Below, piece after piece: positions 4,687 through 13,941 of a stretch of DNA of 64,000 bases. Position 1 is the stretch's first letter. Each line of letters starts with the position of its first letter. Position numbers and translations under genes: made by a program. The notes beneath the pieces were generated by a model. It saw nothing but the letters and a program-made list of their open reading frames with translations. It ran no database searches and was not told the origin of the DNA. The stretch comes from an uncultured Selenomonadaceae bacterium (GTDB taxonomy: Bacteria; Bacillota; Negativicutes; Selenomonadales; Selenomonadaceae), in the NCBI GenBank assembly GCA_905233135.1, contig CAJOCQ010000001.1:124001-188000 (forward strand), read 5' to 3'.

Positions 4687-6135
4687 TTATAAAATGAATT
4701 GTGACAAGTCACGATTCTTGGCAATTTCTTTTAAGCGTTCATCAACGTACGCCGCGTCAATGTTAATTTCAGTTTTGCCTTCCTTGACCATATCAGGCGC
4801 GGAAAATGAAATTTCTTCCAACAATTTTTCAAGCATTGTATGAAGGCGGCGTGCGCCAATATCTTCGCTTTGTTCGTTGACGTCGAACGCCATTTCAGCA
4901 ATTCGTTCAATAGCTTCAGGCAAAAATTCCAGCGTCAAGCCTTCGGTTTTCAAAAGTTCTTTGTACTGTTTAATAAGCGCGTTTTGCGGTTCTGTAAGAA
5001 TTTTTTCAAAGTCTTCTTTGCGCAGTGATTTTAACTCAACGCGAATTGGAAAACGTCCCTGCAATTCGGGGATTAAATCTGAAGGTTTCGCCGTATGGAA
5101 CGCGCCCGCCGCTATGAATAAAATATAATCTGTTTTAACGGGACCGTATTTCGTCATAACGGTTGAGCCTTCGACAATCGGCAAAATATCACGTTGTACG
5201 CCTTCGCGGCTGACATCGGGACCTGCGCTGGAGCCTTTAACTGCAACTTTGTCAATTTCGTCCAAAAATACAATGCCGCTGCGTTCGGCAAGTTGCAAGG
5301 CAGTTTCTGCAACTTCTTCCATATCAATAAGTTTTTCGGCTTCTTCCTGTTCAAGAATTTTCCGAGCCGCCGCAACTGTAACTTTTCTTTTGCGCGTACG
5401 TTTGGGAACAAGCCCGCTAATCATATCTTGCAGATTATCGCCCATACTTTCAAGCGAGGAGCCGCTAAACATTCCAACCATAGGTTTTGCGTGGTCTGCA
5501 ACTTCCAATTCAATAATTTGTTCTTCGAGCTTGCCTGCTTCCAAACGTTTTTTGACAAAATCGCGCCCGGCGTTGCTTGCAGGCGTTTCTTCCGCGTCAA
5601 CAGTTTTGTTATCTTCGCCGTTATTTTCCACGCCGCCAAAAAGTTTACTCAAGGGATTTTGAGTGCGTTTAGGTTCGGGAACAAGAATATCTAAAAGGCG
5701 TTCGTTGGCGTTTTCGGTAGCTTTATCTTTAACTTCTTCGGTGCGTTGTTTGCGTACCATACGAACAGAAATTTGCATAAGGTCACGAATAATCGACTCA
5801 ACATCGCGCCCGACATAGCCGACTTCAGTAAATTTTGTAGCCTCAACTTTTACAAAAGGAGCTTTGACAAGTTTAGCCAATCTGCGTGCAATTTCAGTTT
5901 TGCCGACGCCCGTTGAACCAATCATTAAAATATTTTTCGGAATAACATCGTCTTTAATATCGTCAGAAAGTTTGCGGCTGCGCCAACGATTTCTTAACGC
6001 TATTGCAACAGACTTTTTAGCGTCTTCCTGCCCAACGATATACTTGTTGAGTTCTTCGACAATTTCGCGCGGCGTTTGTTCGTTTACGCCGAGTTCAGCA
6101 TTTTTATTTTTTTCGAGTTCAGCTTTTTTCGCCAA
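4687..6135 (-). CDS. hslU: ATP-dependent protease ATPase subunit HslU
   Basis: HslU is the AAA+ unfoldase of the HslUV (ClpYQ) protease and feeds substrates to the HslV peptidase. The 482-residue product has [10 protein letters not shown] near the N-terminus, Walker A GSTGVGKT at residues 73-80, Walker [11 protein letters not shown], and the I-domain between them. The C-terminal LSQFIL end, needed to dock into HslV, is intact. The start is a TTG with AGGAAG about nine bases upstream. It follows hslV by 47 bases on the same strand in the classical order trmFO-hslV-hslU. The codY gene often found next in Firmicutes is absent; a repeat element follows instead. Confidence 0.98.
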
Positions 6136-6182: not shown

Positions 6183-6719
6183 CTATTTAAGCTCTTCAAC
6201 GATAATATTTTGATTAGTGAAAACGCAAATGTCAGCCGCAATGGACAAAGATTCTTTGGCAATTTCCGCCGCCGTCATTTCGGTATGAGAAATAAGCGCA
6301 CGTCCTGCTGCAAGTGCGTAAAAGCCGCCCGAGCCTATCGCTGCAACGTCGCCGTCGGGTTCAATAACTTCGCCGTTGCCTGACAGCATTAAAATTGTAT
6401 CTTTGTCTGCAACCAAAAGCAACGCTTCTAACCTGCGTAAAATTTTATCGGTACGCCATTCTTTTGCAAGTGAAACTGCGGCGCGTTGTAAATGCCCGTG
6501 ACATTCCTCAAGCTTATCTTCAAACTTTTCAAAAAGTGTAAAGGCGTCTGCAACCGAGCCCGCAAATCCCGCAATGACTTTATCGTGGTAAAGGCGGCGA
6601 ACTTTTTTTGCGGTTGCTTTCATAATCGTATGTTCTCCAAATGTAACCTGCCCGTCGCCCGCAATGGCCGTTTGCCCGTTGCGTTTGACGGCTACTATTG
6701 TTGTTGAATGAAATTCCAT
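6183..6719 (-). CDS. hslV: ATP-dependent protease subunit HslV
   Basis: HslV is the Ntn-hydrolase peptidase ring of HslUV. The 178-residue product aligns along its length with the family, including [26 protein letters not shown] and ICVFTNQN. The catalytic threonine is expected at Thr6 (MEFHS-TTIV), which implies removal of a five-residue propeptide rather than only Met. The ATG at 6719 has TGGAG nine bases upstream. A longer open frame continues upstream but runs through a repeat element and is not coding. Confidence 0.97.
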
Positions 6720-6942: not shown

Positions 6943-8250
6943 TTAGTGCCTATTAATAAAATTGTTCAAAGTTTCCAACGCCCGCTCCGCCAATTTAGAT
7001 TTTCTGTCAGATTTTTTTACTTTTATTTCAAAGGGCGGCAAAAGTCCGAATGTTATATTCATTGGCTGAAAATTTTTTGATTCAGCGGTTGTAATGTAAT
7101 TTGCCAACGCGCCGTGACAAGTTGTAACGGGGAAATTCAGCACGTCAAGATTTTTTGCAAGCCGCGCCGCGTTAATACCCGCAATTAATCCCGCCGCCGC
7201 CGATTCAACGTAACCTTCAACGCCCGTAATTTGCCCCGCAAAAAATATTTTAGGATTGGATTTCAGCTGAAAGGTCGGCAATAAAATTTTCGGCGAATTA
7301 ATGTAGGTGTTTCTATGCATTACGCCGAATCTTACAAATTCCGCGTTTTCAAGTCCCGGTATCATTCGGAAAACTCTTTTTTGTTCGCCCCAAAGTAAGT
7401 GCGTTTGAAAGCCAACTAAATTATACAACGTTGCAACTGCATTATCCTGCCGTAACTGTACGACGGCATAGGGCAAAATTCCCGTGCGCGGGTCGATTAA
7501 TCCTACAGGCTTTAACATTCCGAATCTTAAAGTTTCTTCGCCGCGCGCCGCCATAACTTCGACAGGCAGGCAACCTTCAAAGAAAATTTCCTGTTCAAAA
7601 TCGTGCGGTTTAGTTTTTTCGGCGGAAATTAATTCTGCGCGAAAGTTCAAATATTCTTCATGCGTCATTGGGCAATTTATATAAGATTTATCCGCGCCCT
7701 TGTCGTAGCGTGACGCAAAAAAAGCTTTTTCAAAATTTATTGATTCGGCAGTTACAATCGGAGCCGCCGCGTCATAAAAATAAAAATCGTCGCCGCCCGT
7801 CAACTTTTTAATTTCTTCGGCAAGTGCGCCCGCCGTCAATGGTCCGCTTGCAATAATCAAAATATCTTCGCCGCTTAAAAATTTTTCAAGGCTTGTAACT
7901 TCTTCGTTAATGACGTTGGCAACGGCTTTAACTTTTTGAGTGACAGCCGCGCCGAAATTTTCCCTGTCAACGGCAAGTGCGCCGCCTGCAGGAATTTTCG
8001 TTTCATCGGCGGCAGAAATTATAACAGAATCAAGGCGGCGCATTTCTTCCTTCAAAACACCAACGGCATTTGTAAGCCCCGCCGCGCGAAGAGAATTACT
8101 GCAGACCAATTCGGCAAAGTTGGCGGTTTTATGAGCGGGCGTTTGTTTAAGAGGGCGCATTTCATATAAATTAACTTCGACGCCGCGCCTTGCAATTTGC
8201 CACGCCGCCTCCGCGCCTGCAAGCCCCGCGCCTATTACATTTACTTTCAA
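6943..8250 (-). CDS. trmFO: Methylenetetrahydrofolate-tRNA-(uracil-5-)-methyltransferase TrmFO
   Basis: TrmFO makes 5-methyluridine at position 54 of tRNA using methylenetetrahydrofolate and FAD. The 435-residue protein opens with the FAD-binding [10 protein letters not shown] motif (residues 7-16), then [15 protein letters not shown], and the C-terminal [12 protein letters not shown] block, all diagnostic. The start is a TTG with AGGAG eight bases upstream. It begins 11 bases after the stop of the topA-like gene, so both are read from the promoter at 9.95 kb. Confidence 0.97.
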
Positions 8251-8260
8251 AAAATTTCTC

Positions 8261-9877
8261 CTAGCCTTTAGCTTTTATTTTTTCCCTGCGCAGTTTCAAA
8301 CTTTCCAAAATTTTATTAATAGGGTGTTCTTGGCGCGTTTCGCAATTTTCGTTGCCGCAATAAATCATTGACGCGCGCCCTTTGAATTTGTGCGCAAAAA
8401 CGGTTGAGCCGCAAGTTTTGCAAGGTTTTTCCAGCGGATTATCCCAAGTTCTGAAATCGCAAGTTGGATTTTCGCAAGCGTACAAATTGCGCCCGCCGCT
8501 GAAATTTCTTTTGGTAAGAGTGCCGCCGCACTTCGGGCATTTCTGCGCAATTTTTTCAACGTACGATTTAATATTCTTGCATTCGGGGTAATTTGAACAC
8601 GCCAAATAATTGCCGTATCTGCCGTGCTTTAAAAGCATTTTATGTCCGCACTTTTCGCAAATTTCGTCAGTTTCAATAACGGGGACTTCTTGAATTTGCG
8701 CGCCTTCGGGCAATGACGCCATAGCACTTTCAAAACTTTTATTAAAATTCGCGCAGTAATTTTCAATGACGGGAATTTTTTCGGCGGTACCTTCAACAAT
8801 TTTTTCAAGCTGCGAATTAAAATTGTTGTAAGCCTCCGCGCTGAAATCTTTATCAAAAAAGCCGTCCAACGCGCTTAAAACTTTTTCGCCAAGTTCTGTA
8901 ACTTTGTAAACAGAATCTTCAACCGTGATATATTGCCGCTTAATAAGGCTTAACATTCCCAACGAAAAATAATTTGCCCAATCGACTTTCAATTTATCGA
9001 GTGCGAGCATAATTGCCAAATTTGTATTTGCGCCGTCGAGTTTTACTGCAGTTGAAAAGCCGCCGTTAATTGCAGAAAAAATCAATTCGTACAGCTTGAA
9101 TTGGTTATCGGAAAGAAATTCTTTGACACTTTCGGGCGTGCGGTTTTCGGAAGTAATTTTAATTTCGCCTGCGGGGAATTTTATCAAGCCGGCGCAGGTT
9201 TTATCTAAAGTAATTCCCTCATAAAGCTGATTTAAAAGCAAGCGAGTTTTTGACGCGGAAAAATTTAAATCACGCGCCGCCAATTCCTGCAAAGTTGCCG
9301 CAGTAAGATTTTTTGAAATTTTGAAAGTTCCCGCCTTTTTATTTTCTGCAACAACTTTTAAAAGCATAGCGCGAAAACGCCCGACTTTATTGCCGCGCCA
9401 AATTTTGTAGGAAAAAAATTCGCCGACTTTATGGCTTGCGATTTTGTCAACAAGTTGTTTTGCCTGATAGGCGTCAACAAGCTTTTGATTAACGGGGCTT
9501 GCGTTTTGAATTGCGGCTTTAACGGCGTCTTTAGTCAATTCTTCGCAGATAACGCGGCAATGTCCCTGTTCGTTAATCCCGAAAAGTTCGCAGTACTGAT
9601 TAGCCAAAAATTCGCCTTCGGCGTTGGGATTTGTAGCAATGAAAATCAAGCCCGCGTCCATAGTTGCTTTTTTTAGCATTTGCAAAGTTGAACCTTGCCC
9701 GCGTATAGTTTTATAATCGGCGGCGTAATTATTTTCTTCGTCAACAGCCAAGCGGCTTTTGGGCATTGCCTTTAAAAATCCTTCGGTAGATAAAACGGAA
9801 TAGGAGCCGCCGAGCAATTTTTTCAGTGTTTTAGCTTTGTTGGCACTTTCAACCAATATCAAAGACTTTGCAGCCAT
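8261..9877 (-). CDS. Topoisomerase I (TopA) homologue lacking catalytic residues
   Basis: This gene occupies the place that topA holds upstream of trmFO in Firmicutes and is clearly homologous to bacterial type IA topoisomerase. The toprim-like start [13 protein letters not shown] keeps Glu10, and [18 protein letters not shown] and [10 protein letters not shown] match TopA. However, the acidic triad motif DxDxEGE is NPNAEGE (83-89), and the active-site GLITYMRTDS is [10 protein letters not shown], with Phe234 in place of the nucleophilic Tyr. The AHEAIRPT segment is deleted and GRPSTYA is replaced by DWANYFS. Three C4 zinc ribbons remain (Cys407-433, 447-473, 486-512). At 538 residues it is far shorter than the usual ~700. 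DNA cleavage is therefore not expected; a DNA-binding or regulatory role is my inference. The ATG has AAGGAG upstream. Confidence 0.85.
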
Positions 9878-9940: not shown

Positions 9941-9969
9941 ATTATATTTTGAGAAAGATTTATTGTCAA
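9941..9969 (-). promoter_or_regulatory. Sigma-70 promoter of the topA-like/trmFO/hslVU operon
   Basis: On the minus strand TTGACA (9964-9969), a 17-base spacer and TATAAT (9941-9946) form a full-consensus promoter about 64 bases before the ATG. Confidence 0.85.
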
Positions 9970-12747: not shown

Positions 12748-13941
12748 TTAAAAAATTTCTTTCAAGCGTTCAACCTGTTTCATTGCCCAATCAAAATTCG
12801 GGAAGAAATTTTTTCTTGCGCCTTCGACATATAAAAGTTTTCTTTCTTCCGAAATTTGAACGTGTTTCATCGGGAAAACTGCCGCGCGTAAAAGTGCGAA
12901 TGCTTGAAAAATTCCTTTCAATTCGGCAATTTTGGCGGCGTCATTCGTTTCAAAATAATTTGCAAGCAAGCTGTTCCAAAATTTTATAATATTATCTTGA
13001 GACAAAGTTAAAGCCTTTTGAATAGATTCTTGGTCGCTGCAAAGCACGTGAAAAGCCCCTGCCGCAAAATCAAAAACAGGGTGCGCGTAGCCTATGTCCG
13101 CCATATCGATAACGACAATTTCGCCGTTTTGATAAAGCGTGTTGCCCGCGTGAAAATCGCAATGCACGATTGTATTTCTGTCAGGCACGGCGGAAATTAT
13201 TTTTTCAAGCATTGAATATTCTGCGGTGTTGTAAAATTGTTTCATACCTTCCGCCCAATCCAGCCACGTACCTTTTATCGAAGGGAAGCCGTCACTTTCT
13301 TCAATTTCTGTTTCGTGCATAAGTTTCAACAGCGCGGCAAATTTTTTCATAACTTCTTCAAAATGTGCGCCGTTATCGGCACTAAGCATATTTCCGACGG
13401 TTACGGCGTTTGCAATCATTTCAAAAACTACGCCGTAAGTTTCGCCGCAACGCACCAAGTCATATGAAATTGCGGTAGGAATGCCGGCAAGAAAAGCTTT
13501 TTTCGCCAAGTCAATTTCGCGGGTAATTTTGTACATTGGGACTTTTTTATCATAAACTTTAATGATTGTATCGGCGTCGATTCTGTAAACTTTGCTGCTC
13601 ATTCCAATTCCGACTTGTTGCAAGCCTTCGATTGAAACATTGCGCAATTTTTTTTGCACGTCAAACATTGTGGTAAATCCCGTCATTTCAAGTACTTCAA
13701 AAATTTCTTTTGATGCGTTTTCGATTTTAATTTTTTGTTTTTTCGACTTGCGAAATTTCATTAAAATTCTTAAGCCCGCGCTTGAAATATATTGAAGGTT
13801 GTCAACGTCAAAAATTAATTCGCAATTTGGATTTTCTGCAATAATTGTTTTAATGTTTTGTTCGACTTCGGCGGCGTTATTTGAATCAATGCGCCCTTCG
13901 AGGAAAATTTTCAGTTGACCGTCTTCAATTTTAAAATTCAT
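12748..13941 (-). CDS. STAS domain fused to an aminoglycoside-phosphotransferase-like kinase
   Basis: Residues 1-95 form a STAS domain of the anti-sigma-antagonist type, with the phosphoacceptor-like loop YISSAGLRIL (Ser53/Ser54). Residues from about 105 onward form an APH/choline-kinase-like fold. Its catalytic loop is HCDFHAGN (His260, Asp262, Asn267), its metal-binding Asp is in VIDMAD (Asp279), and a Lys lies in TIIKVY. This kinase half resembles the family TIGR02172, described as a paralogous family in Fibrobacter. The substrate is unknown. The ATG overlaps the end of mtlD by 11 bases and AGGAG lies inside mtlD, so the two are translationally coupled. This suggests a role tied to mannitol/fructose use, but that is inference. 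Confidence 0.85.
   Translation of the reverse strand: MNFKIEDGQLKIFLEGRIDSNNAAEVEQNIKTIIAENPNCELIFDVDNLQYISSAGLRILMKFRKSKKQKIKIENASKEIFEVLEMTGFTTMFDVQKKLRNVSIEGLQQVGIGMSSKVYRIDADTIIKVYDKKVPMYKITREIDLAKKAFLAGIPTAISYDLVRCGETYGVVFEMIANAVTVGNMLSADNGAHFEEVMKKFAALLKLMHETEIEESDGFPSIKGTWLDWAEGMKQFYNTAEYSMLEKIISAVPDRNTIVHCDFHAGNTLYQNGEIVVIDMADIGYAHPVFDFAAGAFHVLCSDQESIQKALTLSQDNIIKFWNSLLANYFETNDAAKIAELKGIFQAFALLRAAVFPMKHVQISEERKLLYVEGARKNFFPNFDWAMKQVERLKEIF

Follow-up and report, generated by a model that had tools for sequence, protein, structure and literature searches.

The gene at the topA locus of an uncultured Selenomonadaceae bacterium encodes a dead homologue of topoisomerase I, an observation made in an initial annotation of this DNA and confirmed here. 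Our comparison of gene sequences demonstrates that three deletions, which took away the two arch halves and the portion of domain III that bears the His, occurred within one Selenomonadaceae genus before the dead clade diversified, that the remaining catalytic residues changed repeatedly after these deletions, that the gene has remained at the topA locus and under purifying selection, and that the genomes searched contain no other TopA. We consider it fairly probable that the protein (hereafter pseudo-TopA) has been re-specialised as a pseudo-topoisomerase that binds ssDNA without catalysis, while TopB does the relaxing. Because the dead gene is still preserved by selection, a whole lineage seems to live without a working topoisomerase I and to have reused its remains.

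The degenerate gene at the topA locus

The window (the whole stretch of DNA analysed, 64,000 nucleotides) carries this gene as an intact frame, as had been annotated, with an ATG start, and the features of the gene and its locus are listed in Table 1. That topA is expected in this place, which the initial annotation had read from the order topA-trmFO-hslV-hslU, is borne out by the profile matches of the three neighbours and by synteny: the same order, with a canonical TopA, is found in one genome of the genus (G068), and trmFO adjoins the dead gene in nine of the 11 dead-gene loci read for synteny, while no trmFO was found beside the dead gene of L136 and L145 within the stretches fetched. From this shared neighbourhood we conclude that the locus is the ancestral topA site. 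The perfect promoter reported upstream of the gene is real in the window (12 of 12 positions) but did not hold up as a feature of the clade, where a 12/12 match occurs in two of 49 upstream stretches and at least 10 positions match in 10 of 49 (at least 10 also match in 62 of 980 shuffled control stretches); a strong promoter conserved across the clade was therefore rejected. Compared with the PADLOC models, the window protein matched no family at an E-value of 0.01 and so was not recognised as an anti-phage defence protein.

Table 1. Features of the pseudo-topoisomerase I gene and its locus (positions in the window)
Feature	Position	Strand	Basis or remark
hslU	4687..6135	-	TIGR00390, 643.5 bits
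hslV	6183..6716	-	Start taken at MEFHSTT; NF003964, 286 bits from residue 59 of longer ORF
trmFO	6943..8250	-	NF003739, 678 bits, and synteny; 10 bp downstream of pseudo-topoisomerase I gene
Pseudo-topoisomerase I gene, 538 aa	8261..9877	-	Ancestral topA position
C4 zinc ribbon 3, residues 483-525	8303..8431	-	Alignment
C4 zinc ribbon 2, residues 443-480	8438..8551	-	Pfam and alignment
C4 zinc ribbon 1, residues 403-437	8567..8671	-	Pfam and alignment
DWANYFS, residues 299-305, replaces GRPSTYA	8963..8983	-	Trp300 new conserved residue, 48/49
Deletion 3 junction, after residue 275, about 63 aa gone	9052..9053	-	Alignment; second arch half
Deletion 2 junction, after residue 238, 43 aa gone with DAHEA/His365 motif, domain III	9163..9164	-	
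Phe234 at nucleophile position (canonical Tyr)	9176..9178	-	Alignment
Deletion 1 junction, after residue 184, about 60 aa gone	9325..9326	-	Alignment; first arch half
Toprim domain, residues 1-126, metal site altered	9500..9877	-	Pfam Toprim and site table
NPNAEGE, residues 83-89, replaces DxDxEGE	9611..9631	-	Alignment; canonical DPDREGE
Sigma-70 consensus promoter TTGACA-N17-TATAAT	9941..9969	-	12/12 positions; upstream of gene

Pfam recognises in the window protein a Toprim domain (3.1e-9, residues 6-109), Zn_ribbon_Top1 and a Topoisom_bac match that is degenerate and weak (37.1 bits, cut-off 35.1). The protein falls below the cut-offs of both the topA equivalog TIGR01051 (217.8 against 456.4 bits) and the TopB model TIGR01056 (25.9 against 515.75 bits), and L136, which retains more catalytic residues than any other copy, also stays below the former (310.1 bits). 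Alignment of the window protein with 33 canonical TopA proteins bore out the replacements of DxDxEGE and GRPSTYA that had been noticed initially, and with them E, N, N and E stand where the acidic Toprim Glu and DxDxE would be; the catalytic Tyr is Phe, the Arg two residues after it is Ala, and the His-bearing AHEAIRPT segment, correctly described as deleted, is gone in 50 of 50 aligned orthologues. The lesions are larger than that list, which had missed two arch deletions. The clade-wide deletions correspond to residues 191-250, 304-346 and 385-447 of the G068 TopA, the first and last of which we take, from alignment to E. coli-type TopA and the TopA domain limits, to form the arch (domain II), one half each. 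With both stretches deleted, on these limits, the four-domain toroid would not be retained, and because the arch is absent we would expect no usual toroidal gate. In the samples compared, the dead proteins are about 540-590 aa long and canonical TopA proteins of the family 657-785 aa.

The Phe at the nucleophile position, stressed in the initial annotation, holds for the window protein but not as a general feature: the position is Tyr in 37 of 50 orthologues, Phe in eight, Cys in three and Trp in two. At the metal site the Toprim Glu is kept in 38/50, D111 in 6/50 (38/50 have Asn there), D113 in 43/50 and E115 in 7/50, and the neighbouring Arg is kept in four and lost in 46. All six catalytic residues (Toprim Glu, the two Asp, Glu, Tyr and Arg) are kept in none of 49 proteins (the partial L007 is left out of counts given per 49); three are retained in 33 proteins, two in 11, four in two, and five, one and none in one each, the copy with five being L136. 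We asked how far these remnants speak for a protein that has kept enzymatic activity through a rebuilt active site and relies on the retained Tyr, for instance as an ssDNA nickase or as a weak topoisomerase. The Tyr, Toprim Glu and second Asp retained in most copies, together with L136, would fit such an enzyme, as would the E. coli D111N variant, which according to the accessible part of PMC7587558 still cleaves DNA, accumulates covalent complexes and is lethal. Against it stand the Phe of the window protein, a Tyr column that changed at least eight times on the tree described below, and the loss of the proton-relay His, of nearly every neighbouring Arg and of both arch stretches; a cleavage-only enzyme would, moreover, be expected to be toxic. 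We therefore regard a rebuilt enzyme as quite unlikely. Because Asn at D111 and Tyr are each so common in the clade while D111N is lethal in E. coli, we take cleavage to be lost too.

The predicted fold remains that of a TopA lacking the arch stretches, as emerged from the comparison of predicted structures that had been proposed. An AlphaFold2 model built on a 49-sequence alignment (mean pLDDT 88.8, pTM 0.77) gave topoisomerase I structures as the first 26 PDB matches in Foldseek, led by 9gdc (an RNAP-TopoI complex, 1.9e-29), 6ozw (TM 0.64) and 4rul, and then reverse gyrases and topoisomerases III. All three C4 zinc ribbons are kept, as had been claimed, with 12 of 12 Cys in the window protein and in 50/50 aligned dead copies. 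Counted by sequence position, the third Cys is closely preceded (at -3, -2 or -1) by a Phe or Tyr in 50/50 copies for ribbon 1, 49/50 for ribbon 2 and 50/50 for ribbon 3, and the aromatic at -3 of ribbon 2 is present in 30/50 dead compared with 33/33 canonical proteins. In E. coli TopA the ribbons bind ssDNA and aromatics of the ribbon strands stack on it (PMC4678816, accessible portion), and the kept ribbons suggest that pseudo-TopA would bind DNA as well. E. coli TopA also binds RNAP, in part through a 14 kDa zinc-ribbon-like C-terminal part (stated in the accessible text of PMC9352719) that is absent from the window protein; a link of pseudo-TopA to RNAP is suggested by homology with the E. 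coli enzyme, and the absence of this part weighs against it.

Spread, ancestry and selection

When 189 genomes of the family were searched at the protein level (66 from the window's GTDB genus and 123 from other genera; most resemble MAGs, and completeness is 60-90% for many), open-frame orthologues with 39-77% identity to the window protein turned up in 59 of the 66 genus genomes, and 50 of these orthologues form the aligned set; the matches in G061 and G113 are partial. The relatives that carry a name are assemblies of Selenomonadaceae from goat, sheep and red deer. Besides the canonical G068, six genus genomes have no such orthologue. One of them, G091, was rejected as a natural knock-out and is counted as a gap, because its contig ends inside a broken-up trmFO. 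The other five (G056, G058, G059, G073 and G102) are without both the dead gene and trmFO and give only weak matches to a related protein, yet contain hslU, the context of which is changed on the three contigs examined in detail. These absences are likely real losses, and possible natural knock-outs, although assembly error is possible too. As a separate observation, G065, a genome with 6% contamination, holds two extra partial dead-topA copies (contigs C30 and C161), probably from a second species in the bin.

Beyond the family, a dead-protein profile was run against 300 genomes of the class (24 of them from the window's genus; 54 of the 300 gave no match at 1e-60): among the matches listed, all 21 full-length ones fall in this genus, and the others are partial and lie within frames of about 700 aa or more, as with canonical TopA. 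One stop lies inside five of the 21 listed full-length matches (G000, G075, G076, G086 and G088); in G000 it is the gene's own stop, passed since the profile is longer, and by coordinates the other four look the same. On a tree of 49 dead, 14 of the 33 canonical and seven outgroup proteins, the dead copies form one group (SH-aLRT 100) and join the TopA of their own family against clostridial TopA, so that common descent is found together with the shared locus; this was a quick search with SH-aLRT as the sole support measure and the catalytic columns kept in, and the tool warned of long branches. The minimum number of changes on the tree is eight for the Tyr column, 14 for E115 and 12 for R321, by which measure the catalytic positions drift across the clade.

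The initial annotation had proposed selection for a non-catalytic function rather than decay and had called for a dN/dS measurement. By the NG86 method, dN/dS was 0.110-0.224 in the 14 closest dead pairs and 0.010-0.020 in the 14 closest canonical pairs (pairs within a set share species and are not independent), with 12 of the dead pairs giving a lower value for the ribbons than for the core; as estimated in this way, the dead gene is under purifying selection roughly ten times weaker than that on canonical TopA. Neutral decay with stops was not found in the orthologues, none of the 59 matches (two of them partial) having a stop inside, and the proposal is thus supported. It might still be argued that the gene is a relic in slow decay, or is kept only through translational coupling to the trmFO that follows it; it does evolve faster than TrmFO (see below), and five genomes seem to have lost it along with trmFO. 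However, open frames throughout, a dN/dS far below 1 and the complete set of ribbon Cys in every aligned copy all speak against a relic, and coupling would require an open frame only, not conserved residues, which makes this explanation highly improbable.

Relative to TrmFO of the same loci, the dead core evolves at 2.64 times and the dead ribbons at 1.5 times the rate (42 loci, 858 pairs), compared with 0.92 times and 0.95 times for canonical core and ribbons (30 loci, 435 pairs). At a TrmFO identity of 0.6-0.7 the median identity is 0.62 (dead) and 0.65 (canonical) for the ribbons and 0.36 and 0.68, respectively, for the core. The majority-residue frequency in ribbons 1, 2 and 3 is 0.85, 0.72 and 0.76 in the dead clade and 0.89, 0.85 and 0.79 in canonical TopA, and in the core parts 0.75 (Toprim), 0.71, 0.68 and 0.62 compared with 0.89, 0.93, 0.87 and 0.89. 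From these frequencies and the TrmFO scaling it follows that the core lost the most constraint and ribbons 1 and 3 the least, although the Toprim part of the dead clade is about as conserved as ribbons 2 and 3. We considered the 227 columns that hardly vary in canonical TopA (at least 94% one residue) and that the dead clade has not lost. At 68 of them the canonical residue survives in at least 90% of dead proteins, and at 31, all in the core, the dead clade has another dominant residue, shared by at least 85% of the whole clade at 16 columns and by at least 95% of the main subclade of 41 at the other 15. Such new residues include Arg-to-Trp at GRPST (48/49) and His-to-Phe at GHLRDL (46/49), and in the main subclade a Pro directly follows the Tyr position (9173-9178 in the window) in 41 of 41 dead proteins. 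With new, nearly fixed residues at these 31 positions, the old core has taken on a new conserved form, and this suggests that it gained a new function too. With catalytic residues lost and both fold and gene apparently kept under purifying selection, the protein has the attributes of a pseudoenzyme derived from TopA.

The remaining topoisomerases

The TIGR01051 cut-off is passed in one of the 66 genus genomes (G068, 823.6 bits); in the other genera 117 of 123 genomes reach it, which makes 118 of 189 overall. A canonical topA might be present and have been missed through incomplete genomes, the window genome being 86% complete in 35 contigs and many others incomplete as well. Yet the same search succeeds in nearly all genomes of the other genera, and of the 14 genus genomes that reach 90% completeness with no more than 5% contamination, 13 belong to the 65 below the cut-off; one of these 13, G079 (99% complete), has the dead gene and a TopB. 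The dead gene itself, moreover, occupies the topA place, and for 42 of 49 dead loci the stretch fetched includes trmFO as well. A missed topA is, on these grounds, hardly credible. In the window genome, the search for a second full-length topA that had been suggested yielded one other type IA protein, which is TopB and not TopA (PRK07726, 753.5 bits, cut-off 597).

In 63 of the 66 genus genomes (all but G068, G098 and G106) a type IA protein matches strongly without reaching the TopA cut-off, and this we read as TopB. In the 34 genus TopB sequences read, YPRSDC is found in 34 and DPDREG in 33, the exception (L187) being partial; TopB of the genus is accordingly intact, and in the window's genome it is the only type IA enzyme found whose active site is intact. 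A type IB enzyme was found in none of the 66 genus genomes (the control matched in one of 14 genomes). The GyrA/ParC-type subunit (PF00521) was matched in 60 of 66, with exactly one in 57 and two in G059, G069 and G095, so that with usually a single such subunit no topoisomerase IV was detected in the genus. The single PF00521 subunit, TopB in 63 genomes and the lack of a type IB match together give a picture of gyrase plus TopB. Across the whole family most genomes likewise have one GyrA/ParC-type subunit, even when their TopA is canonical, and topoisomerase IV therefore seems absent family-wide. The one canonical TopA of the genus (L143, on contig C64 of G068) is without the third ribbon, and its genome has no TopB match (one PF01131 match in all).

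Two possible compensations were tried and rejected. Complete TopBs of the genus carry one to four ribbon repeats (that of the window genome, L001:1057-3366 on contig C6 of G000, ends in three nearly identical C4 zinc-ribbon repeats), an expansion that may tune ssDNA binding; as a gain special to the genus it was rejected, since TopBs from 15 loci of other genera mostly have one to three repeats too (L169 and L179 being of a different, weakly matching type). Conversion of gyrase into a relaxing enzyme through loss of the GyrA box was likewise dropped, because a QxRGGxG-like box is present in 24 of 24 GyrA sequences (13 from the genus and 11 from other genera, one partial).

Because 63 of the 66 genus genomes give no strong type IA match other than a TopB-like enzyme, something may have to couple that enzyme to transcription. 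Pseudo-TopA might then be a dedicated partner of TopB, a non-catalytic subunit bringing it to transcribing RNA polymerase or ssDNA, much as RMI and TDRD3 proteins serve Top3 in eukaryotes, and the new, nearly fixed core residues do suggest a new interface. We judge this rather improbable: neither a physical nor a genetic link to TopB came to light, the genus TopB has C4 ribbons of its own (as have most TopBs of other genera) and may need no adaptor, and five genomes with a TopB-like match seem to be without pseudo-TopA.

Proposed role and known counterparts

According to the ssDNA-binding reading that we favour, pseudo-TopA would no longer cut or pass DNA. Its ribbons, perhaps with the remnant domain IV groove, would bind melted, negatively supercoiled DNA behind RNA polymerase, on which the protein may dock like E. 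coli TopA; R-loops could be limited through capture of single strands, or such sites could be marked for TopB, and relaxation would be done by TopB, working against gyrase where topoisomerase IV was undetected. Several observations weigh against this reading. Overproduced inactive TopoI is toxic in E. coli (PMC9352719, accessible text), which suggests by analogy that an inactive polymerase-bound TopA could be harmful; there are also the five apparent losses, the incomplete genomes, the 37 orthologues with Tyr, the near-complete residue set of L136, the ribbon 2 aromatic present at -3 in 30 of 50, and a Toprim part conserved like ribbons 2 and 3. A wider version, which we hold possible but doubtful, is that the genus has been without topoisomerase I (apparently also without topoisomerase IV) since the dead-TopA clade arose, that its chromosome is run on gyrase and TopB alone, and that the old TopA is a non-catalytic factor recognising melted DNA at the transcribing polymerase and handing it to TopB.

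With bacterial TopA (E. coli, PDB 4rul; 6ozw; 9gdc) pseudo-TopA shares ancestry, gene position, Toprim, domain IV, part of domain III and C4 ribbons, but it is without the arch and the His segment, the metal site and the Tyr/Arg pair are not maintained, and no strand passage would be expected. The inactive laboratory TopoI Y319F of E. coli (PMC9352719, in the part accessible) indicates that a non-catalytic TopA is able to keep its binding parts, and the window copy has the same Tyr-to-Phe change; Y319F, however, is an engineered single substitution that is toxic in E. coli, whereas pseudo-TopA is natural, bears many lesions and occurs in cells without another TopA. The TopB of the same genomes is, like pseudo-TopA, a type IA family member with C4 ribbons, and the Pro after the Tyr position that marks the main dead subclade is found in Topo III and not in bacterial Topo I (PMC10969213, as far as its accessible text goes); unlike pseudo-TopA, TopB is intact, and the dead protein scores far higher with the TopA than with the TopB model. 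YrdD-type proteins, with four TopA-type C4 ribbons, bind ssDNA without topoisomerase chemistry (accessible portion of PMC4678816), whereas pseudo-TopA keeps an N-terminal TopA remnant of about 400 aa that is itself under selection.

Topoisomerase I is described as present in all bacteria in the accessible parts of two reviews (PMC7140829; PMC10969213) and appears essential where topoisomerase IV is missing (PMC7140829, same part), and Topo III is named the universal type IA enzyme in what is accessible of another (PMC8185306). The genus appears to break the rule for topoisomerase I, since of the enzymes looked for gyrase and TopB were found and TopA only as a dead protein. Searches of the open full-text literature turned up no account of a dead TopA shared by a whole clade, which is not proof of absence; pseudoenzymes are a known category, and one that is a topoisomerase and a genus-wide state looks new. 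The clade amounts to a natural separation-of-function experiment, in which non-catalytic parts of TopA have been kept without catalysis in some 60 species, and it makes directly testable whether TopA does anything beyond relaxation and how TopB could balance gyrase alone. Elsewhere in the window, an unusual gene (12748-13941, minus strand) encodes a STAS domain fused to an APH-type phosphotransferase, beside an ORF that we take to be mannitol-1-phosphate dehydrogenase-like.
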